64,000 bases of DNA from Azorinus chamasolen (Eukaryota; Mollusca; Bivalvia; Cardiida; Solecurtidae), in assembly GCA_963576725.1 (NCBI GenBank), contig OY755244.1, forward strand, positions 34,506,446 through 34,570,445. The letters run 5' to 3'. Shown piece by piece: positions 362-63,031 of this stretch. A program made the translations under genes and the position numbers. Under the pieces are notes generated by a model. That model was not told where the DNA came from. It searched no databases and worked only from the letters and a program-made list of their open reading frames with translations. Each line of letters opens with the position of its first letter. Positions within the stretch are counted from its first letter, which is position 1.

Positions 362-424
362 AACAGTTTGGATCCAGATGAGACACCGAGTAATGGTGTC
401 TCATCAGGATCCAAACTCTTTGTC
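362..424. mobile_element. Family E hairpin fragment
   Basis: The hairpin has arms GGATCCAGATGAGACACCG and GGTGTCTCATCAGGATCC. Intact family E copies (47899-48121, 56412-56607) have TTAACTCTTTG ends. Here those ends are not recognisable, so this is a remnant core. The arm mismatch CCAGATG versus CCTGATG typical of the family is present. Confidence 0.6.
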
Positions 425-1070
425 ACCCTGATTGCATTTTGGTAGATAAAATAATTACAGATTGAATTTTGAAAATGTAGTGGATGAACAATTGTGTGAA
501 AATGATTTGAACAGCAGGCTTAAGATTTAATCACATGTGAATACCAAAGTTGTCAATGTGCTTCTGAATAATTGTACTGAATTGTGTGTAACTATGGTAA
601 TAGTCACAATGATTCTTAATTAGAGAAAAGATCATTTGTCTTCGATGTTTAATAATCACAAAGAGAAGCCACACGACAGAAGTAAGGAAAGTTTTGTGCA
701 TTCCAATGTTTTATGGATAATTTCCAGTGAATAATTTGCACTTTAGAATAAGAACAAGGAGCATTTTCCTATAAGAAGTCAAGGGATCAGTATTTATGTT
801 GATTCCTCTGTAAAATTACTTTATAACATAACCTGCTGTGTGGGAGTGCCGAAACAGAGTACCATAAACACTGCTGACATGTACTTGTGCAATTTTTAGT
901 CAAATTAGCACTTTGAACCCAGCCAATAATGAACTTAAAAGAAAATATGCAGAACCAATGCATGACACATTTAATAGTTAGCCAATCGTAGTGTTGCTTG
1001 ACTGATTCACTCCATGTGCATAGCCTTCAGCTATAGAGCCCGTTTCACTTTATATGGCACATTTTAAGAA
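425..1070. other. No feature recognised
   Basis: AT-rich sequence without a long ORF, palindrome or copy of the families listed here. It may be ancient repeat or plain intergenic DNA. Confidence 0.4.
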
Positions 1071-1690
1071 GGGGGTGGGGGGGGGGGGGTGCTGTCCTTA
1101 ACAAAACTTTACCATTGCTTATAACTTCTAAATTACTTAAGCTAGACAATTCATATTTGGTATGCAGATAGCTTAGGTGAAGGCCTTTCACTTGATACAA
1201 GGAAACATGAAATCATCTTTGGTATACAGTTGGCAATCATTGAAAAACTTCAGCATTTTGACTTAACTTCTGAACCACATATGCTAGACAATTCATATAT
1301 GGTATGACAATAGCTTTGGTGAAGGTCTTTCAGTTGATACAAGAATACATGAAATTGGGTCAAGGTCAAGGTCACTATTTTGAAAACTTGGCTGTTTTTA
1401 ACAAACTTTAACATTTTGCTATAACTACTGATCCAGGAATGCTAGGCAATTCACCTTCAGTATTTAGATAGCTTTGGTAAGTACCTTACAGATGACATAA
1501 GGATACCTGAAATTAGGTCAAGGTCACTATTTTGAAAACATGGCTGTCATTAAAAAAAATTCTTTTGAACTACATATGCTAGACAATATATATTTGGTAT
1601 GCAGATAGCATGGGTGAAGGTCTTTCAGTTGATACAAGGATACATAAAATCAGGTCAAGGTCAACACAAAAATTCCAGCTTTAATGAGGT
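1071..1690. repeat. Tandem-core repeat after a poly-G tract
   Basis: A poly-G run (about 1073-1090) is followed by four diverged units of about 140-150 bp. Each contains CTAGACAATTCATATTTGG, GATAGCTTTGGTGAAGG, TTGATACAAGGATAC and GGTCAAGGTCA. The layout, homopolymer or microsatellite followed by tandem cores, matches the CTTGTT-ended elements found elsewhere in the window, but neither terminus is clear. Probably a decayed member of that class. Confidence 0.55.
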
Positions 1691-1845
1691 TTCTGCATTT
1701 TTTTGCTAGTTATAATGGTATATTATCAATAGGATTTTCTGCTATTGGTAGAAACTGTAATGTCAGATCTATTATACTTTCATAAGCAAACGGAGATGAC
1801 TCTAGGTCTTCTCTGTTTGTAATGGTTATATGTGTTTACTTTAAT

Positions 1846-2095
1846 TTAACCCATTCCCTCATATAAATGTGTTTTCACGCATTTGCAAACAGAGTAGACC
1901 CAGATCAGACAGCTCCTAGAGGAGCCGTCTGATCAGGGTCTGCTCTGTTTGCCAATAGAATTTGATAGATCTTTTTCCTTGCTTTCTAAAATGTCTACAA
2001 TGTTCCACCTGCCATTTTTCTTTATAACTAATTTGTTAATGAGTACACAGTAGGTATTGAAATTTGGAATAAACACAGAACAGGGAAAGGGTTAA
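1846..2095 (-). mobile_element. Family B TTAA MITE
   Basis: Complete 250-bp copy from TTAA to TTAA. Family B in plus orientation starts TTAACCCTTTCCCTGTTC and ends in GTTTATATGAGGGAAAGGGTTAA-like sequence; this copy is reversed. It contains the family hairpin GATCAGACGGCTCC/GGAGCCGTCTGATC, flanked by GCAAACAGAGTAGACCC on one side and GGGTCTGCTCTGTTTGC on the other. The right TTAA is shared with the next element. Confidence 0.85.
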
Positions 2096-2225
2096 CCCTT
2101 TCCTTCATAGGAGCCATCTGATCAGGGTCTGCTCTGTTTGCTTATGGAGTAATATAGATCTTATTCTACAGTTTCTACCATTTAGGTAAAAAAAATCCAA
2201 TGTTCATGTTCCATTATGGACATTC
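2092..2225 (+). mobile_element. Truncated family C TTAA MITE
   Basis: Starts at the TTAA that ends the preceding B copy. It keeps only GGAGCCATCTGATCAGGG, TCTGCTCTGTTTGCTTATG and the following family C sequence. The left hairpin arm and right terminus are missing. Confidence 0.65.
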
Positions 2226-2635
2226 AGCTACCGTATATCTCCGGTCATAAGTCAAACTTTTCAGACCCAAAAATCACCTTCAGAAACCTGTCTGGACTTA
2301 CGGCTGTATCCTAGCCAGGTTTGGAAAAAGAAGGTTGAGCAAAAATCAAATCAGAAGTTCAATTTTCAATCACGAAACATACGACACTCCCTTGAATAAC
2401 ACTTCCAGTCAACAAGTTCAAAACCATGTTCTCCTGTGAAAATTTGCCACCTCAGCATGCTACATAGATAGAATAACAGAGTTTTGTGATGAAACTGATA
2501 TTTGTGCTGTTTATTATGATTATAGTCCATTATTATGCCTTTGGAAATAATTTGAAACTGCCAGCGTTCCCACTGACTATTGCAGAAAATGGCACTCACT
2601 TTATACAAGGGTGGCAATTCTGTTGATGTAACAGA
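2226..2635. other. No feature recognised
   Basis: A reverse-strand ORF of 134 codons crosses this region, but its N-terminal part is translated family A sequence and it resembles no known family. I do not support a gene here. Confidence 0.4.
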
Positions 2636-2993: not shown

Positions 2994-3243
2994 TTAACTC
3001 TTTCCCTCATATAAATGTGTTTTCATGCATCAGCAAACATAGTAGACCCAGATCAGACGGCTCCTGTAGGAGCCGTCTGATCAGGGTCTGCTCTGTTTGC
3101 TAATGGAATTAGATATATCTGTTTCTTTACTTTCTGAAGTAGCTACAATGTTCCACCTTCCATACTTCATTATAACTATTTTGTCCATGCATATTCAGTA
3201 GGTATTTAAATTTGTAATAAACATAGAACAGGGAAAGGGTTAA
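2994..3243 (-). mobile_element. Family B TTAA MITE
   Basis: Complete 250-bp copy with TTAA at both ends. The hairpin AGACGGCTCCTGTAGGAGCC GTCT is intact, and the right end GGAATAAACATAGAACAGG-type sequence is followed by GGGTTAA. One of the better-preserved B copies. Confidence 0.9.
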
Positions 3244-3463: not shown

Positions 3464-3706
3464 ATATCCCTTTCCCTGTTCTATGTTTATTCTAAATTTC
3501 AATACCTACTGAATATTTCATGGACAAAATAGTTCTAATGCAATATGTAAGTTGGAATATTGTAGTCATTTTAGAAACTTCTATCAAATTCCATTAGCAA
3601 ACACAGCAGACCCTGATCAGACGGCTCCAGTATAAGAGCTGTCTGATATGGGTCCACTCTGTTTGCAGATGCATGAAAAGGCGTTATAATAGGAAATGGA
3701 TAACCC
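3464..3706 (+). mobile_element. Family B TTAA MITE, eroded ends
   Basis: Full-length B layout in plus orientation: CCCTTTCCCTGTTCTATG, CAATACCTACTGAATATT, hairpin, then CTGTTTGCAGATGCATG. Both TTAA ends have mutated and the hairpin has an imperfect apex. Confidence 0.75.
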
Positions 3707-4677: not shown

Positions 4678-4926
4678 TTAACCCTTTCCTTTATATAAAT
4701 GCATGTTCATACATTTGCAAACAGGGTAGCCCCAGATCAGTCGGCTCCTATAGGAGACGTCTGATCAGGGTCTGCTCTATTTGCTTATGATATAATATAG
4801 ACATGAGTCTGCAGTTTCTGCCGTGGCCAAACATTCCTGTGTCAATGTACTATTATAACAATTAATCTATTTAATATTCATGATATCATTATATCTTATA
4901 TGAATATTCATGGAATAAAGGGTTAA
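4678..4926 (+). mobile_element. Family C TTAA MITE
   Basis: Complete copy. Family C in plus orientation starts TTAACCCTTTACTCCATAAA, has GCAAACAGGGTAG before a GATCAGA hairpin, continues with CTGCTCTGTTTGCTTATG and CAGTTTCTGCC, and ends TGAATATTCATGG-AATAAAGGGTTAA. It is nested in a G element at the TTAA of the G left arm. Confidence 0.9.
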
Positions 4927-4954
4927 AGCAGGGGGGGAGTTATGCAGAAGGCTT

Positions 4955-6998: not shown

Positions 6999-7207
6999 CA
7001 GTAAAACCCCTCTAAATTGGAATTTTAGTAGAGAAGAATTTAGATACTTTTAGGCAGGTGGCTGCTTAATACTGGATGAAAGTCATGCAAAAAGCTCCTA
7101 GAGAAGAGGAGCTTTCTGCATGACTTTCACCCTGCAATAAGCTGCCACCTATCTCCATTATCAACATTTATACAAAATATAATGTCTGGTTTAGAGGGGT
7201 TTTACTG
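6999..7207. mobile_element. Family G (TA-flanked) MITE
   Basis: Complete 209-bp copy with TA on both sides. The left end is CAGTAAAACCCCTCTAAAT and the right end is its inverse. The inner arms AGGTGGCTGCTTAATACTGG and hairpin GTCATGCAAAAAGCTCC/GGAGCTTTCTGCATGAC are well kept. Confidence 0.9.
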
Positions 7208-7362: not shown

Positions 7363-7590
7363 TTAACCCTTTACTCTATACTTTCTACACCTTTGCAAAC
7401 AGTGTAGACCCAGATCAGATCGGTCGCCATCTGATCAGGGTCTGCTCTGTTTTCTTATGATATAATATTACAGTTTCTGCCATGGCCAAAAATTCCTGTG
7501 TCAATGTACTTACTATTATAACAATTTATTTTATTTCATATTCATGATGTAATTATTTCATACATGAATATTCATGGAGTAAAGGGTTGA
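7363..7590 (+). mobile_element. Family C TTAA MITE
   Basis: Full-length copy, TTAA to mutated TTGA. The hairpin apex is altered (GATCAGATCGGTCGCCATCTG). The right end is CATGAATATTCATGGAG-TAAAGGG. Confidence 0.85.
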
Positions 7591-8240: not shown

Positions 8241-8490
8241 TTAACCCTTCGCTTGCTGTTCACGCCAATATACCTACCTGTAAATAGTGAAGACCCAGAT
8301 GAGACAGCTCCTGCAGGAGCTGTCTCATCAGGGTCTGCACTATTTACAAGTTGATTGTGCAACCAGTGCACTCCACAGCAGTGATTGCACAGCGAAATAC
8401 TTGTACACAGTGAAGATATATGTAATTATACAACAGGGCATGGGTAAAGAAGGAGAACTGTATTTTAAAATTCAGCAAGCGAAGGGTTAA
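8241..8490 (+). mobile_element. Family D TTAA MITE
   Basis: Complete 250-bp copy. The terminal inverted repeats TTAACCCTTCGCTTGCTG / inverse are a perfect 18 bp. The hairpin AGATGAGACAGCTCCTGCAG/GAGCTGTCTCATC is flanked by GTAAATAGTG and CACTATTTAC. The ORF crossing it is not a gene; the reversed copy at 12965-13214 translates almost the same. Confidence 0.9.
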
Positions 8491-8701: not shown

Positions 8702-8931
8702 TTAACTCATTCCCTCCTAGACTATTTTTAAACCCAGCCTCTTTGAATTAATCTACCGAAAAGGAGCATTAACTATAGAAAAGGAGAATTTTAGAATTGT
8801 GTAGTTTTGAAACCATTGTGATAAATAGAGCATTTGCTCCTATGGAGCAAATGCTCTATTTATCACAATGGTTTAAAAAAAAATAGTTTTACAGAGACAC
8901 AAAAATGTGTCAGTACGAGAGAATGGGTTAA
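8702..8931 (+). mobile_element. Family A TTAA MITE
   Basis: Full 230-bp copy. Left TTAACTCATTCCCTCCTAG; perfect hairpin GAGCATTTGCTCCTATGG-AGCAAATGCTC; right end GAGAGAATGGG-TTAA. Confidence 0.9.
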
Positions 8932-9097: not shown

Positions 9098-9299
9098 TTT
9101 ATTTTTAGATACAACCTCTTTGAATAAAACTACCGAAAAGGAGCATTAACTAGAGAAAGGGAGAGTTTTAGAATTGTGTAGTACTGAAACCATTGTGATA
9201 AATAGAGCATTTGCTCCTATGGAGCAAATGCTCTATTTATCACAGTGGTTTCACAATGTGAATTTTATAGAGGCGCAAAAATGCGTCACTAGGGGTTAA
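9098..9299 (+). mobile_element. Family A MITE, left end lost
   Basis: Starts abruptly at TTTTTAGATACAACCTC. The hairpin is intact and the right end is CACTAGGGGTTAA. The left junction lies next to a diverged B/C-like stretch (8938-9097) that shows GTCTCATCTGGGTCTATTC. Confidence 0.8.
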
Positions 9300-10971: not shown

Positions 10972-11093
10972 TATATTGTAACATAAGCAAACAGAGTAGA
11001 CAGACCCTTATCAGATGGCTCCTACTCGAGCTGTCTGATCTGGGTCTACTCTGTTTGCAAAGGCATAGAAAGGTGTATTTATGGAGTAAAGCT

Positions 11094-11407: not shown

Positions 11408-11657
11408 CTAACCCTTTCCCTGTTCTATATTTATTCCACATTTCAATACCTACTGAATATTCATGAACAATATAATTATAATGAAATATGGAAGGTGGAA
11501 CATTGTAGCCATTTTAGAAAGTAAAAACACATACATTTCAAATTCCAATAGCAAACAGAGTAGGCCCTGATCAGACGGCTCCTATAGGAGCCGTCTGATC
11601 TGGGTCTACTCTGTTTGCAAATGCGTGAAAACACGTTAATATGAGGGAAAAGGTTAA
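11408..11657 (+). mobile_element. Family B TTAA MITE
   Basis: Full 250-bp copy. The left TTAA has mutated to CTAA and the right is GGTTAA. The hairpin GATCAGACGGCTCCTATAGG is perfect. Confidence 0.9.
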
Positions 11658-12046: not shown

Positions 12047-12286
12047 TTAACCTTTTCCCTCATATAAATGCCTTTTCATGCATTTACAAACAGTCTAGTA
12101 GAACCAGATCACGTGGCTCCTACAGGAGCCATCTGATCAGGGTCTGCTCTGTTTGCTTTTTGACGTGATATAGATTCGATTCTACAGTTTTTGACAAAGC
12201 AAAATATTACATAATAAAAAATCAGTTGATAATTATGCATGCTTTCATCATTTCTTACATGAATATTGAAACAGATAAAGGGTCAA
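12047..12286 (+). mobile_element. Family C TTAA MITE
   Basis: Left TTAACCTTTTCCCTCATATA is B-like, while the interior and right end (GCTTTTTGACGTGATATAG, TACATGAATATTG) are C-like, so the copy is mosaic. The hairpin is GTGGCTCCTACAGGAGCC. The right TTAA has mutated. Confidence 0.8.
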
Positions 12287-12964: not shown

Positions 12965-13214
12965 TTAACCCTTCACTTGCTGAATTTTAGAATACATTTC
13001 TCCTTCTTTACCCATGCCCTGTTGTATAATTACATATATCTTCACTGTGTACAAGTATTTCGCTGTGCAATCACTGCTATGAAGTGCACTGGTTGCACAA
13101 TCAACTTGTAAATAGTGCAGACCCTGATGAGACAGCTCATGCAGGAGCTGTCTCATCTGGGTATTCGCTAATTACAGGTAGGTATATTGACGTGAACAGC
13201 AAACGAAAAGTTAA
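12965..13214 (-). mobile_element. Family D TTAA MITE
   Basis: Reversed copy of the element at 8241-8490 and close to it in sequence along its whole 250 bp. The left end is TTAACCCTTCACTTGCTG, and the right end has drifted to AAACGAAAAGTTAA. The hairpin ATGAGACAGCTCATGCAGG has one arm change. Confidence 0.9.
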
Positions 13215-13324: not shown

Positions 13325-13400
13325 AAGTGTCAAAACAGCTTGGATCCTGATGAGATGCTGAGTGACTCGGCGTCTCATCTGGATCCACGCTGTTTTAGAA
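13325..13400. mobile_element. Family E hairpin fragment
   Basis: AACAGCTTGGATCCTGATG, apex AGTGACTCGGCG, then TCTCATCTGGATCCACG. The ends of an intact E element are not visible. Confidence 0.6.
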
Positions 13401-14113: not shown

Positions 14114-14349
14114 AGCGTTTTTTTCCACCCAATTGGGAACGGGTCCGCGGTGCCCTTCAGGTTGGGAATTGTAAACTCTTGACAATATCTGTAGATTTAT
14201 TATCACTGAACGTAAACCAGTCTCGATGAAGGGGCATGTATAGATCGGGACCGTTTCCGAAATGCGGCCATATTCAGTGGTTGCCTCTCATCCAATGGCT
14301 TCATCAGGAACAATTTGATCTGGGTCTAAACTGTTTGCCAAACTCTGGC

Positions 14350-15620
14350 TTAGCCCTTTCAAAGTTCTACAGTAAAACCCCGAACTCTCGAACCCCGGAA
14401 AACTCGTTCACTACCCTTAATTCGAACTAATTCTGCGGTCCCAACTCCTTCCTTCTTAAATTCTATATGTTTGACCTCGGATAATTAGACCATGCGAAAC
14501 TCGAACTCTCGAACTCATCTCCCGGTCCGCTGATTAATAAAACTGTGCAAAGTACCTTTGATAAGTCGAACCGTTGTCTTACCTGTATGGCTGCGCGTCG
14601 AACCAAAGATTCACACCTCTCAGGTGACTATCTCAGCTCGCCGATAATTACGTGATTGGTAGACAATGGGTGAATGTGTGATGTTTTATCAAGGTGTTAA
14701 AATTTAAATGTGTGTGTTTGTGAAGGTTGTTTTGGGCTAACATTGACTGTCATATCGTAGGGCTATAACACGATCGAAATGGTTAAACTTCATCGTTCAC
14801 AATGGCAGAAATAACAGTTGAACGAATATATTTGTTCTCCTCTGTTTTTATCCGTGAATGTTAATTGAGTTAATTTCTAATGGCCCTATATGCGAATCCA
14901 CTTACGAAAACACAAGGAATAGTTTTTCCCCAATACTGATCTGTTGCAACCATCTAAATAACGGAATTTTACCAATTTTGTGTGTTCTCGTAGATATTTA
15001 AATGGGTTGTAGACCGTTGTACATAAACTGAGACGATGATGACAGGTCGTTCAGTCCCGGTTTTTAACCAGACCAAAATGGCGAGATATATACATAGCAT
15101 AGATACGTTCATGGCAGAAACATGAAATTTGGAATAATGGGACGATGTTTTTATAGAATTATGTGTTGCATTAGTATTTTCATTGTATTGCAAAGGCAGC
15201 AAAAACAGTGAGTTTTGTAATAGAAGTTTGTTTATTCATTTTCGACATGAAAATATTCTCAAACTCATGTTCGAACAATTTCTGTACCATTTGCTACCAA
15301 ACGAATGTGAGACTCGGATCTTTCGAACCACCCTTAATTCGAACTAAAATTTATGGTCCCCAAGGTGTTCGAGAGATCGGGGTTTTACTGTATATTTATT
15401 TCAATTTTCAATATCTACAGAATATTCATGGACAAAATAGTTATAATGAAATATGGAAGGTGGAACATTGTAGACATTTCAGAAAGTAAAGAAACAGATC
15501 TATCAAATTCCATTAGCAAACAGAGCAGACCTAATCAGATGGCTCCTACAGGAGCCGTCTGATCTTGGTCTACTCTGTTTGCAAATGAGTGATAGGCGTT
15601 TATATGAGGGAAAGGATTAA
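14350..15620 (+). mobile_element. Family B MITE opened by a 1.0 kb insertion
   Basis: The left 20 bp read TTAGCCCTTTCAAAGTTCTA. The right part (15391-15620) resumes with TATTTATTTCAATTTTC and contains the hairpin AGATGGCTCCTACAGGAGCC and GAGGGAAAGGATTAA. Rejoining the parts at TA restores an ordinary B copy. Confidence 0.85.
14370..15390. mobile_element. Pogo/Tigger-like non-autonomous element, 1.02 kb
   Basis: Left end CAGTAAAACCCCGAACTCTC; right end, inverted, CAGTAAAACCCCGATCTCTC. The inverted repeats are about 24 bp with one clear difference, and the flanks are TA (14368-14369 and 15391-15392). The interior repeats CGAAC and AATTCGAACTAA motifs. No transposase ORF is present. Insertion into a B element is shown by that element's resumed sequence. 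Confidence 0.85.
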
Positions 15621-15763: not shown

Positions 15764-15975
15764 TTATAACCCTTTGAATGCAGGAAATTGGTGTACTCGT
15801 CCTTGCATTCCATGTAGATCCAGATCAGAGGACTCCTAGAGGAGCCCACTGGTCCAGGTGTGCACTGTTTGTCATTCAAAATCCTCTAGAAAATTTAAGA
15901 ATTTACACGGAGTTGACTTTATAGTGATCGATGGGTCATTCCAGTGAGACAATTTAGTATTCAAAGTGTAAATAC
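15764..15975. mobile_element. TTAA-type hairpin element, related to family K
   Basis: Starts ATAACCCTTTGAATGCAGG and contains an imperfect hairpin AGATCAGAGGACTCCTAGAG. The GTGTGCACTGTTTGTC after the hairpin matches the K copy at 62305-62516. The right end is unclear. Confidence 0.5.
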
Positions 15976-16862: not shown

Positions 16863-17572
16863 TATCAATTAAACATAAATTCATTATTCCAGAGATGGAA
16901 TAACTGGGCACTAAAGGGACAAATGGGAAATCAAACGTAACTTTGACTTTATTAAAATGTTACCGTTTCCGAATGTCTTGTGGATGCATGTTAGGAAGGT
17001 AGATTATCAAATACTGCTTTGATGTCTCTGTGACCGTGACTCACCAACACGGGAAGTAAAATGTTGAAACATGCATCCACTCAGGTCAGCATACAGCCAC
17101 CTTGAAAATGAATGAATCATTCTGACTACACTGTATAAGTACCATTATAAAAAGTTACACAGCAACGTCATATATATATATATATATATATTCTTGTGAT
17201 GTCAATAAATATTCCCCATTAGTCTAAATCCAGCTCAAGGTAATGACTAGAAATGCTGAGAGTAGTCTCCGGTGGGGGACAATGGATTGCTTGACAACAC
17301 TTGCTTGAATTATTTTTGTTCCTTTTAAAGAAATACAATTGCAGTGTGTCAGTTTGAATGCTGGTGAGATTCCTGATTACTGTGTATCCTATTTGGATCC
17401 AAGCTGTTTACAATATCAATTAAGAATGTGTACAGCGAGCTGAGAGCTAATGACTTTGAATTGTTCAGTTGGGAGTTGTAATCTGATGTGCTCAAGAAAT
17501 GTAATCAATCTTCAAGGATTTTCAAAAAATAACTGATTGAATCTGCATAGTTTGATTGCGTTTTAAGTCTTT
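16863..17572. other. No gene; (TA)n microsatellite inside
   Basis: Contains a run of about 11 TA units at 17170-17191. Otherwise unrecognised sequence without a convincing ORF. Confidence 0.5.
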
Positions 17573-17670
17573 GCAGACTAGCAGCAAATGCATGATAACA
17601 CCAACATCTTGAAGCCAGATGAGGAATGAAGTAATTTGGTGTCACATCAGGATCCAAACTGTTTAAAACT
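17573..17670. mobile_element. Degenerate family E element
   Basis: GCAGACTAGCAGCAAATGC, then a decayed hairpin ending GTGTCACATCAGGATCC-AAACTGTTT. Confidence 0.5.
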
Positions 17671-20344: not shown

Positions 20345-20990
20345 TATTTTGAGTGTTTACTTTAGAAAGGTTTGACTGTGAATATATTGTTTTATTGTCT
20401 AGGGTAGACAGTATATATGTCTGATCAGTTTCATTGGGAAAATGAATTATTTGTTGAAAGTAAATTCTATTATGAAATATCGAACTAACATAAATTCTGT
20501 CTTTTTATCTCCCAGATGGGTTTTGCATGAGTCTGTTCTTAACTCCCTAAGCTTGATTTATATGGAAACAGAAAAAGCAATTTAACTATTTAATACTTAG
20601 TATGCTGGCCAATTTATTATTTCCAAAAATGGCAGAATTCTCTTTGCCTTAAAGTAATTTTTTCTTTAATTCTTTATCATGAAGTTGACCAGGGTCAGTT
20701 TGTTTTGATCCTGATGAGATGCCAACTTTCTTGATGCTTCATTTTGATAATAGGGGTTGCAAAGGTCTGTACGGAACTTCCCCGTTAACTTGTTAAATGT
20801 TAAGATATAATAGGATTTAAAACTGGAAAGAAAGTCATCTTCCTGGCTGATTTTGGGATTAATTGTGAACATTCTAGTTTGCAATTTGGATGACAAAATG
20901 AAATAAATGCAATCCCAGGTTTGTAATTGTGTGTGGTAAAATTTGCAGGATGAAAATGTTGAGCATCTGTATTCTCACTGCTTAAAAAAT
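20345..20990. other. No feature recognised
   Basis: No supported gene. A weak family E-like core (GATCCTGATGAGATGCC) lies near 20708. Confidence 0.4.
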
Positions 20991-23086: not shown

Positions 23087-23507
23087 AAGAGGCTTAAAGC
23101 TAGGTGAAAGTAAAACAGAATGCTCCTATAGGAGCGTTCTGTTTTACTTCCACCTTGCTTTAACCCTTTCCCTCATATAAACGTGTTTTCACGCATGTGC
23201 AAACAGAGTAGACAGAGTAGACCCAGATCCTTGAGGAGCTGTCTGATCAGGGTCTGCTCTGTTTGCTAATATAATTTGATAGATCTATTTCTTTGCCTTC
23301 TGAAATGGCTACAATGTTCCATCTTTAACATTTCGTTATAAAATAATTTTTCCATGAATAAACAGTAGGTAATAAAATTTGAAATGAACAAAGAACAGGG
23401 AAAGGGTTAAGCAGCCACCTGCCTTTAACACATAATATTTGATGTAGAGAGGTTTTACTGTATGTAATTTAGTGGCCGTTATAGAGAAGTTTTTACTATA
23501 TTATAAT
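23087..23507. mobile_element. G-like element nested in C, holding a B copy
   Basis: Contains the hairpin GTGAAAGTAAAACAGAATGC, TCCTATAGGAGCG and inverse, identical in type to the G copy at 38489-38693. After the inserted B copy it resumes TTAAGCAGCCACCTGCC and ends TTTAGTGGCCGTTATAGAG. The left terminus is lost. Confidence 0.7.
23160..23410 (-). mobile_element. Family B TTAA MITE
   Basis: 251 bp, TTAA to TTAA, nested at the TTAA in the right arm of a G element. The hairpin has lost its left arm (AGATCCTTGAGGAGCTGTC). A short GTAGACAGAGTAGACCC duplication is present. Confidence 0.9.
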
Positions 23508-26325: not shown

Positions 26326-27179
26326 TTAATCCCCTCCCTCATATAAAGGCTTTTCATGCCTTTGCAAACAGAGTGGACCCAGATCAGATGGCTCCAGAAG
26401 GAGTCATCTGATAAGGGTCTGCTCTGTTTGCTTATTACATGATATAGGTCTGATTCTACAGTTTTTTAGCTCACCTGAGCCAAAGGCTCAAGGTGAGCTA
26501 TTGTGACCGCCTGTCGTCCGTCGTCCGTCTGTCCGTCTGTCCGTCTGTCCGCACTCACCAAAGGGTAGTAGTATGTCCGTCCGTCTGTCCGTTCACTTTT
26601 ATTTCAAATGACTTCTTCTCCTAAACCACTGGGAGGATTTCAACCAAATTTCACAGAAATGTACCTTAGGATGTCCTCTATCAGTTTTGTTAAAATCATG
26701 ACCCCCGGGCAAAAAATGGCCCCGCCCCACTACTTTTACAGGTTTTTTTTTTAAATCTTTAAAAATCTTCTTCTCTGAAACCACAATTTCTAGAGCTTTG
26801 ATATTTGGTATATAGCATCATCTAATGGTCCTTTACCAAGTTTGTTAAAATGATGACCCCCGGGCCAAAAATGGCCCTGCCCTGGGGCTTGTAGTTTTTA
26901 CATAGACTTATATAGGGAAACCTTTAAAAATCTTTTTGTCTGAAACCACATAATCTAGAGCTAAGATATTTGGTATGAAGCATCACCTAATATACCACTA
27001 CCAGGTGTGTTCAAATAATGACCCCTGGGCCATAAATGGTCTCACCCTGGGGTTTTATGCTACTTAACATCAGAATCTGTAACACTTAAAAGGTAATTTC
27101 CTCACAGTTATTTCCCTTGTCCCATCAGCATAGCCATAAGAGACAAAGGGAGATAACTGCATTGGAGTGCTAGTATCAT

Positions 27180-27453: not shown

Positions 27454-27645
27454 TTAACTCTTTGCATGCTAGTGGTGAAACTGTGATTACCTATGCAAAC
27501 AGTTTGGATCCAGATGAGAGGCCGCATACTGCGGCATCTCATCAGGATCCAAACTGTTTGTCATCTTAATCATATTTTTGCAAAAAAATGAAAGTAAGTT
27601 TATTTTAAGAATTGAAGCAGATGACAATAACTTTTTGTTGCAGAC
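27454..27645. mobile_element. Family E TTAA element
   Basis: TTAACTCTTTGCATGCTAG at left; hairpin GGATCCAGATGAGAGGCCGC, apex ATACT, inverse; then AAGAATTGAAGCAGATGAC. The right TTAA end is missing. Confidence 0.75.
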
Positions 27646-33988: not shown

Positions 33989-34385
33989 TTAACCCTTAAC
34001 CTGTTTGCTTTGACAAAAATTGATCTGGGACTACTCTTGTTTGCTAATGCTTAAAAAAATTGTTAATGCCATAAATAGAAGTTTTAGCTTTGAAAAAAAC
34101 TGTAAAATCAAATCTATATCTTGTCAAATGTAAAAAGAGCAGACCCTGATCAGACAGCTTCTATAGCAGCCGTCTGATCTAGTCTACTCTTATTTTTAAT
34201 GTGTAAAACACATTATTTCTCTGAAGAGAAGTTTTTGTTTTGACAAAAACTGTAGAATCCGATCTATATTGTGTCAAAAGAAACAGAGAAGACCCAGATC
34301 AGACAGCTTCCGTAGGAGTCGTCTGATCTGAGTCTTCTCTGTTTGCTAATGCATAAAAACAGCTTTATATGAGGGAAAGGGTTAA
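33989..34385 (-). mobile_element. Tandem double C-like MITE
   Basis: TTAACCCTTAACCTGTTTGC at left and GAGGGAAAGGG-TTAA at right enclose two hairpins: GATCAGACAGCTTCTATAGC (34148) and GATCAGACAGCTTCCGTAGG (34297). Each is preceded by TTTTGACAAAAACTGTA-type and ATCTATATTGTGTC sequence. Two elements or a 130-bp internal duplication. Confidence 0.7.
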
Positions 34386-36117: not shown

Positions 36118-36354
36118 TTAACCCTTTCCCTGTTCAATATTCATGTAAGAAATAATGACATCATGAGTATTTATGAGCTGATTTTTTATAATGTAAACTT
36201 TACAAGGAAATGTTTTGCTTTGAAAGAAACTAAGATCAGATCTATATCATATCAAAAGCAAACAGAGCAGACCCTGATCAGACTGTGCTCCTACAGGAGC
36301 CATCTGATCTGGGTCTACTCTGTCTGCAAATGTGTGAAAAGGAAAGTGTCTTAA
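36118..36354 (-). mobile_element. Family C-like TTAA MITE
   Basis: 237 bp, TTAA to TTAA. Left CCCTTTCCCTGTTCAATATT (B/C mosaic), hairpin GATCAGACTGTGCTCCTACAG with a two-base bulge, right end GAAAAGGAAAGTGTC-TTAA. Confidence 0.85.
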
Positions 36355-36730: not shown

Positions 36731-37295
36731 TTAACACTTTACTCCATATATACACCTTTCTATGCCTTTGCAAGCTGAGTAGACCCAGATCAGATGGCTC
36801 GTGTAGGAGCCATCTGATCAGAGTCTGCTCTTTTTGCATATGACATAATATAATTATGTCTGATTCTAAAGTTTCTGTCATGATAAAAAAAAAAAATCCC
36901 TTGTTCATAATGCCATTTTACAGTGTACATGTATGTATAAAAATTCAATTTATTAATATAGTTTAACCCATTCCTCCATAGGCAATTTTTAGACTCAACC
37001 ACTTTGAATGAAACTACCCAAAAGGAGCATTTACTAGAGAAAAGTAAAATTTTAGAATTTTGTAGTTTGAAACCATTGCGATAAATAGAGCATTTGCTCC
37101 TATAGGAGCAAATGCTCTATTTATCACAACGGTTTCAAGAAGTGGTTATTACAGAGGCGGAGAAAGGCGTATTTTGTGGAGGAAAGGGTTAATTAGTATT
37201 ATAGTATTAGTTAATTATCCTTCAGGAGTCATCTGATCTGGGTCTACTCTGTTTGCAAAAGCATAGAAAGGCATTTTTATGGAGTAAAGTGTTAA
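36731..37295. mobile_element. Composite: two inverted C halves around an A copy
   Basis: The left half (36731-36961) is a plus C copy with hairpin GATGGCTCGTGTAGGAGCC. The right part (37193-37295) is the left end of another C copy in inverse orientation: GTCATCTGATCTGGGTC, TTTATGGAGTAAAGTG-TTAA. The whole unit is bounded by TTAA and has about 80 bp of inverted ends. Confidence 0.7.
36962..37192 (+). mobile_element. Family A TTAA MITE
   Basis: 231 bp with perfect hairpin. Left end CCCATTCCTCCATAGGC; right end GGCGGAGAAAGGCG...GGAGGAAAGGG-TTAA, which is C-like. Confidence 0.9.
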
Positions 37296-38789: not shown

Positions 38790-41115
38790 AATCCTTTCCC
38801 TGTTGGATATTCATGTAAGAAATAATGACATCATGAAGTTTCTTGTCGAATTTTCATAATGGCATTATGTGCAAATGAGTTTTTATACGCCCACCTAATA
38901 AAGGTGGTCGTATATTGTCATGGCCCTGTCCGTCCGTCCGTCCGTCCGTCCATCCGTTCGTTCGTTCGTTCGTTCGTACGTTCGTTCGTTCGTTCGTACG
39001 TTCATTCATTCGTCCGTCAACATTTTGTTTGTCCGCTGTTTTCTGGGAAAACTATTTGAGAGATATTAATGAACCTTCACACAAATGTTAAATGCATCAA
39101 GATCTGAAGCTGAGTTGATTCTGAGGTTCCTTTGGTTTTTCATTTCAGAGTTATGGCCCTTGTCCTTAAAAAATATGCAAATAGTTTGTCCGCTGTTTTC
39201 TGGGAAAACTATTTAAGAGATATTAATGAAACTTCACACAAATGTTTAATGCATGAAGATCTGAAGCTGAGTCGATTCTGAGGTTCATTTGATTTTTCGT
39301 TTCGGAGTTATGGCCCTTTTACTTAAAAAATAATGCAAATACATGCAAATAGTTTGTCCGCTGTTTTCTGGGAAAACTATTTGAGAGATATTAATGAAAC
39401 TTCACACAAATGTTTAATGCATCAAGATCTGAAGCTGAGTTGATTCTGAGGTTCATTTGATTTTTCATTTCAGAGTTATGGCCCTTGTCCTTAAAAAATA
39501 TGCAAATAGTTTTTCCGCTGTTTTCTGGGAAAACTATTTGAGAGATATTAATGAAACTTCACACAAATGTTTAATGCATCAAGATCTGAAACTGATTCGA
39601 TTCTGAGGATCATTTGATTTGTCGTTTCAGAGTTATGGCCCTTTTACTTAAAAAATAATGCAAATACATGCAAATAGTTTATCCGCTGTTTTCTGGGAAA
39701 ACTATTTGAGAGATATTAATGAAACTTCACACAAATGTTTAATGCATCAAGATCTGAAGCTGAGTTGATTCTGAGGTTCATTTGATTTTTCATTTCAGAG
39801 TTATGGCCCTTGTCCTTAAAAAATATGCAAATAGTTTTTCCGCTGTTTTCTGGGAAAACTATTTGAGAGATATTAATGAAACTTCACACAAATGTTTAAT
39901 GCATCAAGATCTGAAACTGATTCGATTCTGAGGATCATTTGATTTGTCGTTTCGGAGTTATGGCCCTTTTACTTAAAAAATAATGCAAATACATGCAAAT
40001 AGTTTATCCGCTGTTTTCTGGGAAAACTATTTGAGAGATATTAATGAAACTTCACACAAATGTTTAATGCATCAAGATCTGAAGCTGAGTTGATTCTGAG
40101 GTTCATTTGATTTTTCATTTCAGAGTTATGGCCCTTGTCCTTAAAAAATATGCAAATAGTTTGTCCGCTGTTTTCTGGGAAAACTATTTGAGAGATATTA
40201 ATGAAACTTCACACAAATATTTAATGCATCAAGATCTGAAACGGAATTGATTCTGAGGATCATTTGATTTTTCGTTTCAGAGTTATGGCCCTTGTCCTTA
40301 AAAAATAATGCAAATAGTTTGTCCGCTGTTTTCTGGGAAAACTATTTGAGAGATATTAATGAAACTTCACACAAATGTTTAATGCATCAAGATCTGAAGC
40401 CGAGTCGATTCTGAGGATCATTTGATTTATTGTTTCGGAGTTATGGCCCTTGCACTTAAAAAAATAATGCAAATATGAGGATGGCCATAACTTTTTCAAA
40501 ATTTTGAAATGATATTTACTTCAATTTTTTTATATGGTTAAACCTTTATGTGAATTTTCACATATATTGCGGGAGTTTTGATATGTCATTTTATTCTAAA
40601 GTTATGGTCCTTGAACTTCGTGTGTTCGTTGCTTTATTAGTCGGTCAACTTTTAGTTTGTCTGTTGTTTTCTGGGAAACTATTAAAATGATATAAATGAA
40701 ACTTAACACAAATGTTTTAAGCAATAAAGTTTGAAGCTGAGTTATGGCCTTGCACTTTACAAAAATCTGCAAAAATGAGGATTAGCTGTAACTTTTTTAT
40801 TTAATAAGATATTCACTTCATTTATTTTAAAAAATAGTATCACCTTAATATGGAAATCAAGATCTGAAGCACAGATTAGAGAATATCAACACTTATAAGG
40901 CATGTTGAATCAGAGAAAGTTTGCAAGTGGGCGTATTATGTACCGTATGCGGTACTCTTGTTGATATTAGTAGAAGCTGTAGAGTTAGACCTATTATAGT
41001 TTCATAAGCAAACAGAGCAGACCCTGATCAGATGGCTCCTACTGTACAGGATCTGTCGGATCTGGATCTACTCTGCAAAGACATGAAAAGGCGTTTATAT
41101 GAAAGAAAGGGTTAA
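38790..41115 (-). mobile_element. Family C-like MITE opened by a 2.1 kb element
   Basis: The left part (to 38884) has CCTTTCCCTGTTGGATATTC and GAAATAATGACATCATG. The right part (from 40973) has AGAGTTAGACCTATTATAG, the hairpin AGATGGCTCCTACTGTACAG and GAAAGAAAGGG-TTAA. Confidence 0.75.
38885..40972. mobile_element. Hairpin-start, tandem-core, CTTGTT-end element
   Basis: Starts ATACGCCCACCTAATAAAGG then TGGTCGTAT (terminal stem), then (GTCC)n/(GTTC)n at 38930-39020. The core GTCCGCTGTTTTCTGGG recurs at about 39030, 39187, 39356, 39513, 39680, 39838, 40006, 40158 and 40320, alternating near 157 and 168 bp, so the true period is a dimer of about 325 bp. The end is TACCGTATGCGGTAC then TCTTGTT. 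Short ORFs (38859-39059) are translated microsatellite. Confidence 0.8.
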
Positions 41116-41975: not shown

Positions 41976-42639
41976 ATCTCTAGCATGATTCCATATACAG
42001 CCAGATCCATCAATAGATTGCTTGAGTGGTTGTGAGCTGCATTCTGATGTAGGCGTTGCCATGTTAACCGTTTGTTCCATAAAAATGCTTTTCTATGCCT
42101 TTGCAGACAGAGAGGCTCCTGTAGGAGCCGTCTGATCAACGTCTGCTCTGTTTGCTTATGAAATAATATAAATTTGATTCTGCAGTTTCTGCCATTGCCA
42201 AAACGTCCTATGTACATGTGCCATTATTAAAACGAATCTAATCAATAGTCATGATGTCATTATTCATTACATGAATACAGGGTTTGCACAGCCTTGAAAA
42301 CTCCTTGAATTTCAGGGGTGGCCTTGAAAAGTGCTTGAAAACATAAATAAGTACTTGAAAAGTGCTTACATTTTGGCACATCCTAAAAAGTTCTTATAAA
42401 GTGCTTGAAAATCTTCATTAATGTCCATGAAAACTGTCCAGGCAGAACTATTAGCTACTATAGATTTCATATGACTCATCATTCAAATATGCTATATAGT
42501 AGAATCTTTGACATTTGCAGTTATGTGACTACTAATTGAATTGTAAAAGTAATGCAGAAAGATCCTTTAGAAACCTTCTGCATTACTCTTGCACTCAATT
42601 AAGCTATTTCCTGCTTATGGTTGCTTTTGAATAGGCTTT

Positions 42640-47898: not shown

Positions 47899-48121
47899 TT
47901 AACTCTTTGTACGCTAAGTAATTTTTTCGTCTGCTTCAATTCTTAAAATGAATTTTCTCTCATTTCTTTGCAAAAATATGGTCAAGATGACAAACAGTTT
48001 GGATCCTGATGAGATGCCGCATTATGCGGCGTCTCATCTGGATCCAATTTGTTTGCATGGGTAATCACAGGTTCGCCGCCAGCATGCAAAGAGTAACAAA
48101 GAATAGCGTGCAAAGAGTTAA
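47899..48121 (+). mobile_element. Family E TTAA element, intact
   Basis: 223 bp, TTAACTCTTTGTACGC to GCGTGCAAAGAGTTAA. Hairpin TTGGATCCTGATGAGATGCC, apex GCATTATGC, inverse GGCGTCTCATCTGGATCC. It starts at the TTAA that ends the C copy. Confidence 0.88.
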
Positions 48122-51422: not shown

Positions 51423-52147
51423 GTTGAACACTTATATCTCAAACTTAAATAACTTGAACTTGATTGGGATATCTTGAAGTAAAATTTCTGAAGGGAGGTG
51501 ATCGCCTGAGAGCAAAAATTGCAACACAAAAAGAGAAAACTGCAGACTCGGTTTTATTGAGTCTGTTCATGAACAGTAATTGAAAGTGCAACACTGCTCA
51601 CGCCCCCTAAGCACCGGCTTAAGCGGTATTCAATTTTCAGAACAAGAAGTGCTGAAATTCATGATCTCGAAGGATCAGAAGGTATAACAACACTGAGAAA
51701 AGTTTGGTCTTTCCAAAAATTTACAATACAAAATTATTCTAAAATGTATCACCATGCGTATCTAGAAACACATGTTACAGCTTAATGCAGGTCGAAGGAT
51801 TACTTTATTTACTGCATTAAGCTGTGAACTTGAGAAATTGTTCAGATTAGAAATCGGATGACTCGAACCTCTGTTAACCAATTCCCTCATATTTGACGCC
51901 TCTGTAAAAATGACTTTGTGAAACCATTGTGATAAATAGAGCATTTGCTCCATAGGAGCAAATGCTCTATTTATCACAATGGTTTCAAAACTACACAATT
52001 CTAAAAATTTCCTTTTCTCTAGTTAATGCTCCTTTTCAGTAGATTTATTCAAAGAGGTTGTATCTAAAAATAGCCTATGAGGTAATGGGTTAACTCAAAG
52101 TAATTTGTATCGTCCATTGAAGTTCGAGATATCGAAGTTCAGCTATA
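51423..52147. mobile_element. Pogo-like element with nested A copy
   Basis: Left TTGTTGAACACTTATATCTC and right, inverted, AGCTGAACTTCGATATCTCG are imperfect inverted ends near TA. An inner palindrome (51778-51827: ACAGCTTAATGCAG and CTGCATTAAGCTGT) resembles the G arms. An A copy (51874-52093) splits its right side. Confidence 0.55.
51874..52093 (-). mobile_element. Family A TTAA MITE
   Basis: 220 bp, TTAACCAATTCCCTCATATT to GCCTATGAGGTAATGGG-TTAA, perfect hairpin with CATAGG apex. Confidence 0.92.
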
Positions 52148-52497: not shown

Positions 52498-52756
52498 CCC
52501 TTTACTTCATGAATATTCATGTAAGAAATAATGATGTCATAAATATTAATTTGATAATATTTTTATATTGGCACATCAACACAGAAATTTTTAGCCACAC
52601 CAGAAACTGTAGAATAATATCTGTATAATATTTCACAAGCAAACACAGCAGAGTAACCCTGATCAGATGGCTCCTACAGGAGTCGTCTGATCTGGGTCTG
52701 CTCTTTTTGCAAAGGCTTAGCTAGCCAGAAAGGTGTATTTATGGGGTAAAGGCCAC
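52494..52756 (-). mobile_element. Family C TTAA MITE, eroded ends
   Basis: TTATCCCTTTACTTCATGAA, CATGTAAGAAATAATGATG, hairpin GATCAGATGGCTCCTACAGG with AGTC arm change, TTTATGGGGTAAAGGCC. Abuts the previous A copy. Confidence 0.8.
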
Positions 52757-55536: not shown

Positions 55537-55753
55537 ACAATTAAAACCCTCTCTAAACAGATGTTAAAATTTACTATTAGTCTTGGAAACAGGTGGCAGC
55601 TAAATGCAGGAAACAGGTGGCAGCTAAATGCAGGGTGAAAGTCATACAGAAAGCTCCTGTAGGAGCTTTCTGTATGACTGCAGTAAGCAGCCACCTGGCT
55701 AAAGGTATATAAGTTCTTCTCTACTAGAAGTTTGATTTAGAGGGGTTTTGCTG
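55537..55753. mobile_element. Family G (TA-flanked) MITE
   Basis: Ends CAATTAAAACCCTCTCTAAA and, inverted, CAGCAAAACCCCTCTAAATC, with TA flanks. Left arm AGGTGGCAGCTAAATGCAGG is duplicated in tandem (55587-55633). Hairpin TCATACAGAAAGCTCCTGTAG, inverse. Confidence 0.85.
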
Positions 55754-56411: not shown

Positions 56412-56607
56412 TTAACTCATTGCTCGATAACAACAGTTGTCATCTGCTTCATTTCTTCAACTGAAATTTGTTATTTCTTTGAACAAATATGGTCATCGTG
56501 TCAAACAGTTTGGATCCTGATGAGATGCTGCATGATGTGGCGTCTCATCTGGATCCAAACTGCGTGCATGGGTAATCACGGTTTTGCTGCTAGCGTGCAA
56601 AGAGTAA
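56412..56607 (+). mobile_element. Family E TTAA element
   Basis: TTAACTCATTGCTCGATAAC, hairpin GGATCCTGATGAGATGCTGC, inverse with two changes, then GCTAGCGTGCAAAGAGTAA. Confidence 0.82.
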
Positions 56608-57167: not shown

Positions 57168-57338
57168 CAGTAAAACTCGATACAACGAAATCTGTCTTTG
57201 TAGGCAGGTGGCTGCTTAATGCAGGGTGAAAGTCATGCAGAAAGCTCTGCATGACTTTTGCCCTGCATTGAGCTGCCACCTGTCTTACAGATTGATAATG
57301 ATATATGTTTTAGCGATTAAATTACCGGGATTTTACCG
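57168..57338. mobile_element. Family G (TA-flanked) MITE
   Basis: CAGTAAAACTCGATACAACG and, inverted, CGGTAAAATCCCGG, TA flanks. Arms GGCAGGTGGCTGCTTAATGC / inverse and hairpin AAGTCATGCAGAAAGCTC-TGCATGACTTTT with shortened apex. Confidence 0.85.
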
Positions 57339-57982: not shown

Positions 57983-58246
57983 TTAACCCTTTCCCTGTTC
58001 TATATTTATTAAAAATTTCAATACCCACTGATTATTCATTGGCAAAATACATGTAGTTATAATAGAATATGGAAGATGGAACATTGTAGCTATTTTAGAA
58101 AGTAAAGGAGCAGATCTGTCAAATTCCATGAGCAAATAGAACATATTCTAGTCAGACGGCTCCTAGGCTCCTATAGGAGCTGTCTGATCTGGGTCTACTC
58201 TGTTTGCAAATGCATGAAAACATGTTTATATGAAGGAAGGGGTTAA
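57983..58246 (+). mobile_element. Family B TTAA MITE
   Basis: 264 bp. The hairpin has a duplicated GGCTCCTA unit before the apex. Right GAAGGAAGGGG-TTAA. Confidence 0.9.
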
Positions 58247-59214: not shown

Positions 59215-59400
59215 TTAATCCTTTACTCCATTAATATGCTTTTCTACGCCTTTGCAAACAGATTAAACCCAGATCAGACTGCTCCTATAGGAGCAGTCTG
59301 ATCAGTGTCTGTTCTGTTTGCTTATGATATGATATAAATATGAATCTTCAGTTTCTGACATGAACAAAAATTCCTGTGTCCATGTGTTATAATTTTTTTT
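59215..59400 (+). mobile_element. Family C MITE, right end lost
   Basis: TTAATCCTTTACTCCATTAA. Hairpin GATCAGACTGCTCCTATAGG with fully matching inverse, so both arms differ from the usual GATGG/CCATC. Cut after the TTCCTGTGTCC region. Confidence 0.82.
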
Positions 59401-60895: not shown

Positions 60896-60900
60896 TGAAT

Positions 60901-61012: not shown

Positions 61013-62053
61013 TAGCTCATCAGAGCACAAAATGCTGGGGGTGAGCTTTTGTGATCGTCTGATGTTCATCTTTCGTCTTCTGCTCTGAATCTACAGGGTT
61101 CTCACCTTTCATCTTTGGCACATAGCATCATCTGAAAGGTCCTCTAAAATTATGTCCCTGGGGTCAAAATTGGCCCAGCCCCAGGGGTGGCCATTTTTCA
61201 GTAGAAAAATATAGTGAAAAATTTGAAAATCTTCTCCTCTAAAACTGGAAGGTTCTCAGCTTTCATTTTTGGCACATAGCATAAACTCCTCAGCTTTCAT
61301 ATTTGGCATATAGCATCATGTTCAGGTCCTCTACAAAAATAATACCCCTTAGTCAAAATTGACCCCGCCCCAGGGGTGCCCAGTTTTCAATAGAAACATA
61401 TAGTAAAAACTTTGAAAATCTTCTCCTGAAACTGGAAGGTTCTCAGCTTTCATTTTTGGCACATAGCATCAACTTCAGGTCCTTTACAAAAGTTACATTT
61501 ATAATGCCCCTGGGGTCAATATTTTTCATGTGAGGAAGCCTTCAAGCTGGCTTGCAGTTGGTCGGTGGTTCTTCTTGGATGGTCTTCTGTGCACCAAACA
61601 ATGCAATTTGTTCCGTGCACAGAATAATCTCTGGGATCCACGTGTAATTAGCTGGACGTCATGATATGAAATACTGTTAAAACGACATAAAACCCGATAA
61701 TAACGATAAAAAAAAAAAATCTCCTGAAATTGGAAGGTTCTAGCTTTCATATTGGCACATAGCATCTGTAGGTCCTCTACAAAAGTTATATAAATTATGT
61801 CCCTGGGGTCAAAATTGGCTCTGCCCCAGGGCTGCCTTGTTTTCTAAAAAAAACATTTAGTGAAAACTTTGAAAATCTTCTCCTGTGAAACTGGAAGATT
61901 CTCAGCTTTCATGTTTGGCACATAGCATCATGATCAGGTCCTCTACAGGTCCTCTATAAATTATGTCCCTTGGGTAAAAATTGGCCCTGTCCTAGGGGTG
62001 GCCATTTTTCAATAGAAACATATAGTGAAAACTTTGAAAATCTTCTCCTGAAA
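61013..62053. mobile_element. Hairpin-start element with tandem cores
   Basis: TAGCTCATCAGAGCACAAAA then GGGGGTGAGCTT (terminal stem), reduced GTCT tract, then four to five units with GAAACATATAGTGAAAACTT, AAATCTTCTCCT, CTGGAAGGTTCTCAGC, TTGGCACATAGCATCA and ATTGGCCC-GCCCCAGGGG. No CTTGTT end; SINEs interrupt it. Confidence 0.6.
61520..61716 (+). mobile_element. SINE type 2, 5' truncated
   Basis: TTCATGTGAGGAAGCCTTCA, GTGCACCAAACAATGCAATT, GGGATCCACGTGTAATTAGC, TGATATGAAATACTG, AACGACATAAAACCC. Confidence 0.75.
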
Positions 62054-62285
62054 CATGGCAGAGTGGTTATGGTCTTCGACTGTCAAGCACTTAGCCCCTC
62101 ACCACTGTGGGTTCGAATCCCGGTGTGGAAGCCTTCCAACTGGCTTGTGGTAGGTCGTGGTTCTACTTGGATGTTCTTCTGTGCACCAAATAATGCAATT
62201 TGTTCCATGCACAGAATAATCTCTGGGATCCACCTGTAATTAGCTGGACGTCGTGATATGAAATTCTGTTAAAAAGACATAAAAT
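62054..62285 (+). mobile_element. SINE type 2 with tRNA-like head
   Basis: The head ATGGCAGAGTGGTTATGG carries an A box (TGGCAGAGTGG), and GTGGGTTCGAATCCCGG carries a B box, like Leu- or Ser-type tRNAs. The body is GGAAGCCTTCCAACTGGC, AATGCAATTTGTTCCATGCA, and the tail GAAATTCTG-TTAAAAAGACATAAA. This copy shows that type 2 is tRNA-derived. Confidence 0.82.
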
Positions 62286-62308
62286 CCAATATGAGGGAAT
62301 GGAGTAAC
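62286..62308 (+). mobile_element. Family A right-end fragment
   Basis: CCAATATGAGGGAATGGAGTAA is the last 20-odd bases of an A copy, with GTAA for TTAA. Confidence 0.5.
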
Positions 62309-62516
62309 CGGTACTGTGCAGGACACGATTTACTTATGTCCTTTGCAAACAGTGTAGGCCAGATGAGAGGGCTCCTAAAGGAGCCCTCTCATCTGGGTCT
62401 GCACTGTTTGTCGTGTTACACTTTTCCTTAGAAAAATTCCTAAATGTTCAACATAAGCTTGACCTGATTGAGTTTTGGAACAGTCCCATTTGATATGTGA
62501 GCGTTGTAAGGGTTAA
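62305..62516 (+). mobile_element. Family K TTAA element
   Basis: GTAACCGGTACTGTGCAGG at left, GCGTTGTAAGGGTTAA at right, about 212 bp. Perfect hairpin CAGATGAGAGGGCTCCTAAA/GGAGCCCTCTCATCTG, flanked by GCAAACAGTG and CACTGTTTG. Here both arms read CAGATGAG, so the mismatch seen in other families is absent. Confidence 0.75.
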
Positions 62517-62781
62517 GAATAACCAACTTATGTCAGTACATAATGTATAGATTTCTTATGTAAATGTATTCAATATCTCGACTGTATATCATATAATGGA
62601 AAATTGTGTTGTATTTAGCATATATGATGCATTTATCGTATATCGAGTGTATGTGGTGCATTTATTTATCGTATATCAATCACAAATTGAATGTTTATCT
62701 TGACAGCAAACATGATCCCACTACTGCAGTTGGGTGTATATATATATGATACAGGGCCATCATGGCTCTCTGTCTCTCTCT

Positions 62782-63031
62782 TTCCTTCGTATAAATGCCT
62801 TTCACACATTTTCATGCATTTGCAAACAGAGTAGACCCAGATCAGACGTCTGCTAAAGAAGCCGTCTGATCAGGGTCTGCTCTGTTTGCTTATGAAATAA
62901 TGTAGATATGGCTCTACAGCTTCTAGCAATACCAAAAATTCATGCCTATATAAGCCAGTATAAAAATTCACCTAATAAATATTCATGATATTATTATTTT
63001 TTTAAGGAATGCTAAACAGGGAAAGGGTTAT
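62782..63031 (+). mobile_element. Family C/B mosaic TTAA MITE
   Basis: CTCTCTTTCCTTCGTATAAA; hairpin AGATCAGACGTCTGCTAAAG; C-type middle GTTTGCTTATGAAATAATG and AATATTCATGATATTATT; B-type right end AAACAGGGAAAGGG-TTAT. Confidence 0.8.

Follow-up and report, generated by a model that had tools for sequence, protein, structure and literature searches.

The transposons piggyBac and piggyBat are TTAA elements. Their ends carry imperfect palindromes that are unequal at the two ends and are bound by the C-terminal domains of the transposase, as described in passages of PMC11707139. The CMITEs of the coral Acropora are miniature inverted-repeat transposable elements (MITEs) with a TTAA duplication, CC[C/T]T tips (CCCTTTCCC...) and, in several families, a 75-bp internal region that is more conserved than the ends. 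They are ~100 bp long, with some 1,600 copies in the genome of A. millepora, and are thought to use a piggyBac-like transposase, and the authors suspect that the internal region acts in transposition; the abstract, first Results part and Discussion of that report describe no hairpin or fixed mismatch (PMC2872659). Within the literature covered in part here, this coral group is the closest precedent found for the MITEs analysed in the bivalve Azorinus chamasolen, in a 64,000-nucleotide stretch of contig OY755244.1 (assembly GCA_963576725.1, positions 34,506,446 to 34,570,445; hereafter the window). These elements carry an oriented, imperfect palindrome with a left arm CCAGATSAGA and an inverted right arm CCTGATSAGA, leaving one stem pair, termed the focal site, as A/A when the strand folds back. 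What these elements add to the CMITE precedent is a palindrome that is both directional and asymmetric, and a copy number of 1.6 x 10^5 or more.

The mismatch was tabulated over the whole assembly (1.72 Gb, 137 contigs), as the initial annotation had proposed. A strict pattern, CCWGATSAGAC and GTCTSATCWGG separated by 10-40 nt, matched 163,797 places, against 51 for the reversed-pattern control. The mismatched form (CCAGAT...ATCAGG) was found 75,026 and 74,704 times on the two strands (controls 1 and 0), which together make 149,730 hairpins, or 91.4% of the strict set; the paired remainder of 14,067 (8.6%) was obtained solely by subtraction. A sample of 264 kb, comprising the window and twenty 10-kb stretches at regular coordinates, was searched by BLAST with six family hairpins and yielded 195 distinct copies, reduced to 187 after dropping flank-poor copies and the H type. 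By extrapolation rather than count, this density would correspond to the order of a million genome copies, degraded ones included. The focal site was readable in 180 of the 187 copies, with 144 A/A, 29 Watson-Crick paired (16%) and 7 in other states. As the window was chosen for this finding, the sample was also counted without its 34 copies, and the remaining 146 comprise 113 A/A, 27 Watson-Crick and 6 other. At stem offsets -17 to +13 from the focal site, Watson-Crick pairs occupy 53-89% of sample copies, apart from offset -7, another asymmetric site, lying 7 nt further out, which is paired in 32% overall (14% in B, D and K; 85% in E). Because the other offsets are mostly paired while the focal site is paired in 16%, decay scattered along the stem is excluded as the source of the mismatch. 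Neither an even spread of mismatches nor pairing of the site in most copies, the two outcomes that the initial annotation had set against its own claim, was found.

Within the window, hairpins were collected by similarity and oriented with the CCAGAT arm first, several copies being degraded; the strand given below is the one on which that arm leads, and each end is the start plus the consensus length, hence approximate where there are indels. The motif CCWGATSAGA occurs 52 times, whereas shuffles predict 0.5. The 34 hairpins comprise 31 A/A, two paired and one A/C at the focal site, and a stricter stem score leaves 21, of which 20 are mismatched and one paired, the K copy at 62345 dropping out. 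B hairpins with the A/A mismatch lie at 3033..3100 (+, inside a 250-bp MITE with TTAA ends), 3597..3666 (-), 4717..4784 (+), 10987..11054 (-), 11551..11618 (-, site -7 paired), 15516..15583 (-), 26364..26431 (+), 34130..34197 (-), 36770..36837 (+), 41008..41077 (-), 52639..52710 (-) and 59254..59321 (+), with degraded A/A copies at 12086..12155 (+), 23199..23267 (+), 42088..42155 (+) and 58132..58200 (-). A further B-family MITE, 250 bp from TTAA to TTAA (1846..2095, +), has its A/A hairpin starting at 1885. A/A hairpins of the E family are located at 13331..13397 (-), 17600..17666 (+, degraded), 27495..27561 (+), 47990..48056 (-, inside a TTAA MITE) and 56501..56567 (-); another of E type lies at 359..425 (+), and two degraded E-like copies, also A/A, are present at 17345..17411 (-) and 20695..20761 (-). 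The D hairpins (8279..8348, +, inside a 250-bp TTAA MITE; 13107..13176, -) and those labelled C/B (36258..36327, -) and B/C (62822..62889, +) are likewise A/A, as are a short-loop hairpin scored as K type (7395..7454, +) and a degraded K-like copy (14271..14338, -), while the K-type hairpin at 15805..15872 (+) is A/C. The constant position that the initial annotation had reported was thus recovered, once the hairpins were oriented, in each unit it had listed, namely those starting at 359, 13331, 27495, 47990 and 56501 (E), 3033 and 11551 (B), 8279 and 13107 (D) and 36258 and 62822 (C). Its two exceptions are equally real. The K hairpin at 62345..62412 (+) is A-T paired at the focal site and still T/G at -7, and the B hairpin at 34279..34346 (-) is A-T paired at both sites, its orientation being ambiguous, as for any paired copy.

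Clustering by flanks produced 10 clusters of at least three copies, which hold 111 of 254 records, the pattern-picked loci L001-L030 included. The consensus is A/A in all 10, weakly in one. The three-copy K cluster is among them, which rules out K as an exception at family level and leaves 62345 exceptional as a copy. TTAA borders both ends in seven of the 10 consensuses (fam134, 120, 40, 117, 52, 48 and 51), and a clear TTAA is missing at one or both ends of fam121, fam113 and fam57. A strict end rule recognised both ends in 22 of 102 hairpins examined; these bounded copies measure 205-256 bp, with 17 of the 22 at 243-256 bp. Terminal tips begin with CC[C/T]T (CCCTTTCCCT in fam134 and fam117, CCCTTTACTC in fam120, CCCTTCGCTTGC in fam40, CCCTTTCACCGCC in fam48 and CCCTTTCGTTGCC in fam51), and the tip of the E cluster fam52, CTCTTTGCATGC, departs from this at the second base (CTCTTT). 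For the families B, D, E, K and F alike, the base of the hairpin most often lies 38-39 nt from the left TTAA, although in the cluster consensuses the intervening sequence varies among families. The hairpin itself matches more genome places than its flanks do. A left-end TTAACYCTT-like motif was sought beside the 145 sample A/A copies and was found on the A-arm side only in 67, on the opposite side only in 3, on both in 2 and on neither in 73. Since the motif sides with the A arm by 67 to 3, the polarity of the mismatch is fixed relative to the element, in line with the common oriented hairpin that the initial annotation had envisaged. Judged by target site and tip, the elements are piggyBac-type MITEs. 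The unrelated look that the initial annotation had noted is no more than skin-deep. On their architecture the families are homologous, with divergence of nearly everything outside the hairpin and tips creating that look. The simplest origin is one founder hairpin common to them all, as the clear-ended clusters agree in the TTAA duplication, a tip like CCCTT, the position of the hairpin and, for the most part, a length of ~250 bp. A GCAGACGACAA motif close to the right end was observed in the E and F consensuses, twice in the E cluster fam51, and is a candidate right-end binding motif.

The likeness to CMITEs, as far as the published descriptions in PMC2872659 extend, thus comprises TTAA, CC[C/T]T tips and an internal region better conserved between families than the ends. 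The elements described here are longer (205-256 bp in the 22 bounded copies, in contrast with ~100 bp), contain an oriented asymmetric palindrome and reach 163,797 strict hairpins. With piggyBac and piggyBat they share subterminal imperfect palindromes that are arranged differently at the left and right ends; those palindromes are short in the passages of PMC11707139 concerned (19 bp in piggyBac, 14 bp for one of piggyBat), whereas here a palindrome of ~70 bp occupies one side and its binding is putative. Given the end palindromes of the piggyBac family, a palindrome present on one side, at constant spacing from the left tip, is what a signal specific to that end would look like. The likeliest reading, held at even odds, is that it serves mobilisation as a cis-signal of the left end, in which the A-left/T-right asymmetry forms part of what a binding factor reads. 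Founder elements would have carried the ~70-bp imperfect palindrome 38-39 nt inside the left end, as an internal cassette of one MITE superfamily, and daughter families would have diverged in ends and bodies while retaining the palindrome together with its spacing from the tip and its polarity. A mismatch exists only when a strand folds back; in duplex DNA the same sequence presents asymmetric inverted half-sites (left CCAGATSAGA, right CCTGATSAGA), and the palindrome might be bound as these half-sites in pairs or after extrusion as a cruciform. Elements losing the A-left/T-right asymmetry would stop founding families, selection presumably acting on the masters. Observed are the placement, the polarity, the complementary change of the arms between families and the fixed asymmetry, whereas binding, a part in transposition and selection on masters are inferred. 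These features suggest that the oriented imperfect palindrome is a working part with a direction and not a decaying leftover.

Comparison of the stems between families bears on this proposal. Seven family hairpins were aligned (seven of the 10 cluster consensuses, with letters left undetermined in K filled by hand), and 15 of 33 stem pairs were found altered on both sides, compared with a shuffle mean of 7.4 (0 of 500 shuffles reach 15) and 0-2 in slid controls. The stems nevertheless remain paired in 95.7% of cells, while the focal pair is unpaired in all seven. Two-sided changes include offsets -3 and +4 from the focal site, on either side of a mismatch that was retained throughout. Many of these changes are double transversions (AU to UA, GC to CG), and one-sided G-U states occur in 2 of the 33 pairs. 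As judged from these consensuses, the double transversions point to inverted half-sites in DNA, or to arm copying, more than to a stem paired as RNA. The case for selection keeping the mismatch is indirect. In its favour, the arms otherwise stayed complementary through 15 two-sided changes; against it, the site is not conserved from copy to copy, and 16 stem pairs of the 33 are invariant too.

The tentative alternative is plain inheritance from a founder, in which the ancestral quasi-palindrome happened to be asymmetric and passed this on to every family unselected, the arms being kept complementary by occasional template switches whose short tracts mostly missed the site. The common architecture of the families agrees with it, and template switching yields two-sided changes without selection, as reported in passages of PMC8794818. 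Several further observations weigh against a selected signal, the first two of them also favouring plain inheritance. With 16 stem pairs invariant, a constant position is compatible with inheritance and nothing more. The focal site in 62 B copies is substituted at a rate of 0.05 per arm, like other A/T stem sites. Changes from A to G or C at the site (2.5%, in comparison with 4.3% at other A/T stem sites) do not differ significantly. Control site -11, taken alone, shows 6.0% A-to-T, near the focal 7.1%. Correction of both asymmetric sites together (5 of 19 as opposed to 13 of 110, p 0.10) is not significant in the sample. Both copies of a GGTC variant (L042_9635, L048_8231) are paired at the focal site, and F-type sample copies, GGTC-like ones included, comprise one A/A and three paired among four read. 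Constancy alone is thus no proof of selection, because the invariant pairs are as constant. Conservation of the mismatch copy by copy is ruled out by these ordinary rates, and, because single copies lack extra conservation at the focal site, the mismatch belongs to the masters that amplify.

Three results are less easily accommodated by plain inheritance. The 15 two-sided changes, those at -3 and +4 among them, left the mismatch in all seven consensuses. Pairing-restoring A-to-T changes are commoner at the focal site (25 of 354) than at eight other A/T stem sites pooled (106 of 2,848), an approximately twofold excess (Fisher p 0.004, with arms treated as independent), and despite this excess a paired consensus is found in 0 of the 10 clusters. 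The third is family M, described below, with its own fixed and oriented asymmetry of A or T against A or T (W/W). The F cluster (4 copies) has an A/A consensus, and at least seven F-type entries among the genome matches listed, identified by eye, are all mismatched. Copies L031_4498, L042_9635 and L048_8231 belong to the same hairpin group without the mismatch (ACTCTGATCAGAC...; CCAGGTCAGA...) and possibly represent small paired families.

Arm correction by template switching is known from quasi-palindromes, where arms are homogenised and two-sided changes arise per event (passages of PMC8794818, PMC8604942 and PMC3820800). A comparable process is suggested here by candidate fully corrected copies, such as L043_3331, a perfect palindrome in which the focal and -7 sites are both paired from one arm, as in some other copies. 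Matched two-sided changes within types number 101 where 58.5 are expected (0 of 500 shuffles), an excess that may derive from arm copying or from sub-families. The process as described in those passages removes mismatches, in contrast with the one mismatch that persists here across families.

That the A/A strand folds as a structured RNA, either resembling a microRNA precursor or required by the element, with the A/A internal loop as a processing or binding feature, is unlikely. In its favour, the B hairpin folds very stably, at -62.3 and -58.4 kcal/mol on the two strands (shuffle means -18.4 and -18.0), and in the family consensuses of B and K the -7 asymmetry amounts to a G-U wobble on the strand with A/A. 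In the cluster consensuses of D and F, by contrast, the -7 site is A/G or C/T, which is no wobble, and F has the opposite sense to D. Double transversions between families, with one-sided G-U in 2 of 33 pairs, are unusual for an RNA stem, and an Rfam scan of the window returned 0 matches at gathering score. The core of a hammerhead ribozyme consists of CTGATGAG, stem II and then GAAA. This ribozyme was considered for the CTGATGAG present here and rejected, as stem II is followed by CTCATCTGG and not GAAA, and no Rfam match was found.

When the 264-kb sample was scanned without supervision, 179 long hairpins were identified, falling into sets of 75 (the focal group), 39 (M), 38 (A), 9, 7 and 3, the remainder being single. 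M is a MITE with TACAGTAAAACCCCTCTAA ends of TA type, which we take to be Tigger/pogo-like, and a 92-bp hairpin; in the window it is found at 7056-7150, 18315-18399, 37617-37686, 38544-38639, 55640-55679, 57205-57282 and 63365-63432. One of its 44 stem positions falls below 55% paired in 52 copies, and it is a W/W site. AATGCA arm pairs (no more than 3 substitutions) have A in one arm and T in the other in 23 of 31 cases, with 4 paired and 4 other, at least one arm in the M arm-pair counts being used in two pairs (55592 and 55616). Mixed arm pairs are A/T in two of three, while the AAAGCA subfamily is paired in 11 of 11 and has no fixed asymmetry. When 24 copies were aligned by the T arm, left and right flank types were consistent and no swapped copy was noticed by eye. 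A fixed, oriented W/W asymmetry thus arose on unrelated ends too, so that either asymmetries of this kind are common as relics of founders or both of these are selected. Because this parallel fits both accounts, plain founder inheritance keeps its tentative standing, short of an even chance.

Family A is a TTAA MITE with a left end nearly that of cluster fam120 and a distinct 70-bp hairpin (TGAAACCATTGTGATAAATAGAGCATTTGCTCCTATAGGAGC...), present in the window at 52-125, 8805-8879, 9185-9253, 35431-35500, 48389-48458, 51279-51348 and 51919-51987, among others. It has no fixed mismatch, as 33 positions are paired in 76-100% of flanked copies (55 found), and in at least 75% when 47 copies are taken. 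Since A lacks the mismatch, the latter is not indispensable, a further point against the left-end signal; hairpins also look exchangeable on similar ends. Three hairpins that otherwise differ (B/K/D, A and M), borne by transposons with two kinds of ends, have the apex GCTCC-NNNN-GGAGC in common, with a loop that is often TATA (82-95, 3060-3073 and 38585-38598, for example, in the window). It is very unlikely that a host DNA-structure factor, independent of transposase, recognises or tolerates palindromes of several transposon types and favours a stem interrupted by a single W/W mismatch in a pyrimidine-W-G context. Of the three abundant groups of hairpins, two carry a fixed, single-polarity W/W in this context (CCWGA; GYWGC), and the common apex would agree with such a factor, whereas group A has the same apex without a mismatch and the M AAAGCA subfamily is paired. 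The broader idea that a common structure-reading factor, other than transposase, selects oriented interrupted hairpins on both TTAA and TACAGTAAAACCCCTCTAA TA-type ends, telling strands or ends apart, is improbable as well.

Exact hairpin patterns gave 0 matches in viral contigs and prokaryote genome contigs, a search from which records near the window's own genome may be excluded. Among the titles listed from the open-access literature no description of the hairpin was found, and six hairpin fragments were unmatched there, subscription journals and repeat databases lying outside this scope; nor is it described in the passages concerned of the Mercenaria genome paper (PMC8905726), of surveys of bivalve transposons (PMC10294476) and of mollusc small RNAs (PMC12479628), and of a paper on Lucina histones (PMC6210712). 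Descriptions of MITEs usually dwell on the ends and treat the middle as filler, whereas here an internal directional palindrome with one protected asymmetry is the part most conserved between families, in an element of extraordinary abundance. Why one MITE family explodes and others do not becomes testable through the symmetry of the arms at a single base. With 10^5 copies per genome and two marker sites each in most types, the hairpins also constitute a natural experiment on arm correction.

Other features of the window include an open Gypsy-type polyprotein of 1611 residues (28218-33053) with aspartyl protease, reverse transcriptase and RNase H. For its first 500 residues the named matches listed include a Candidatus Thiodiazotropha metagenome-assembled genome, Ruditapes, Mytilus and Haliotis, with the corals Paramuricea and Oculina lower among them. 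Candidatus Thiodiazotropha is presumably a symbiont of lucinid clams, and its match is perhaps host contamination. A Tc1-like transposase occupies two overlapping frames at 49555-50537 (HTH_Tnp_Tc3_2; DDE_3 below the curated cut-off), and tandem arrays with a unit of ~157 bp extend over 39027-40475, 43201-44517 and 45110-46064.

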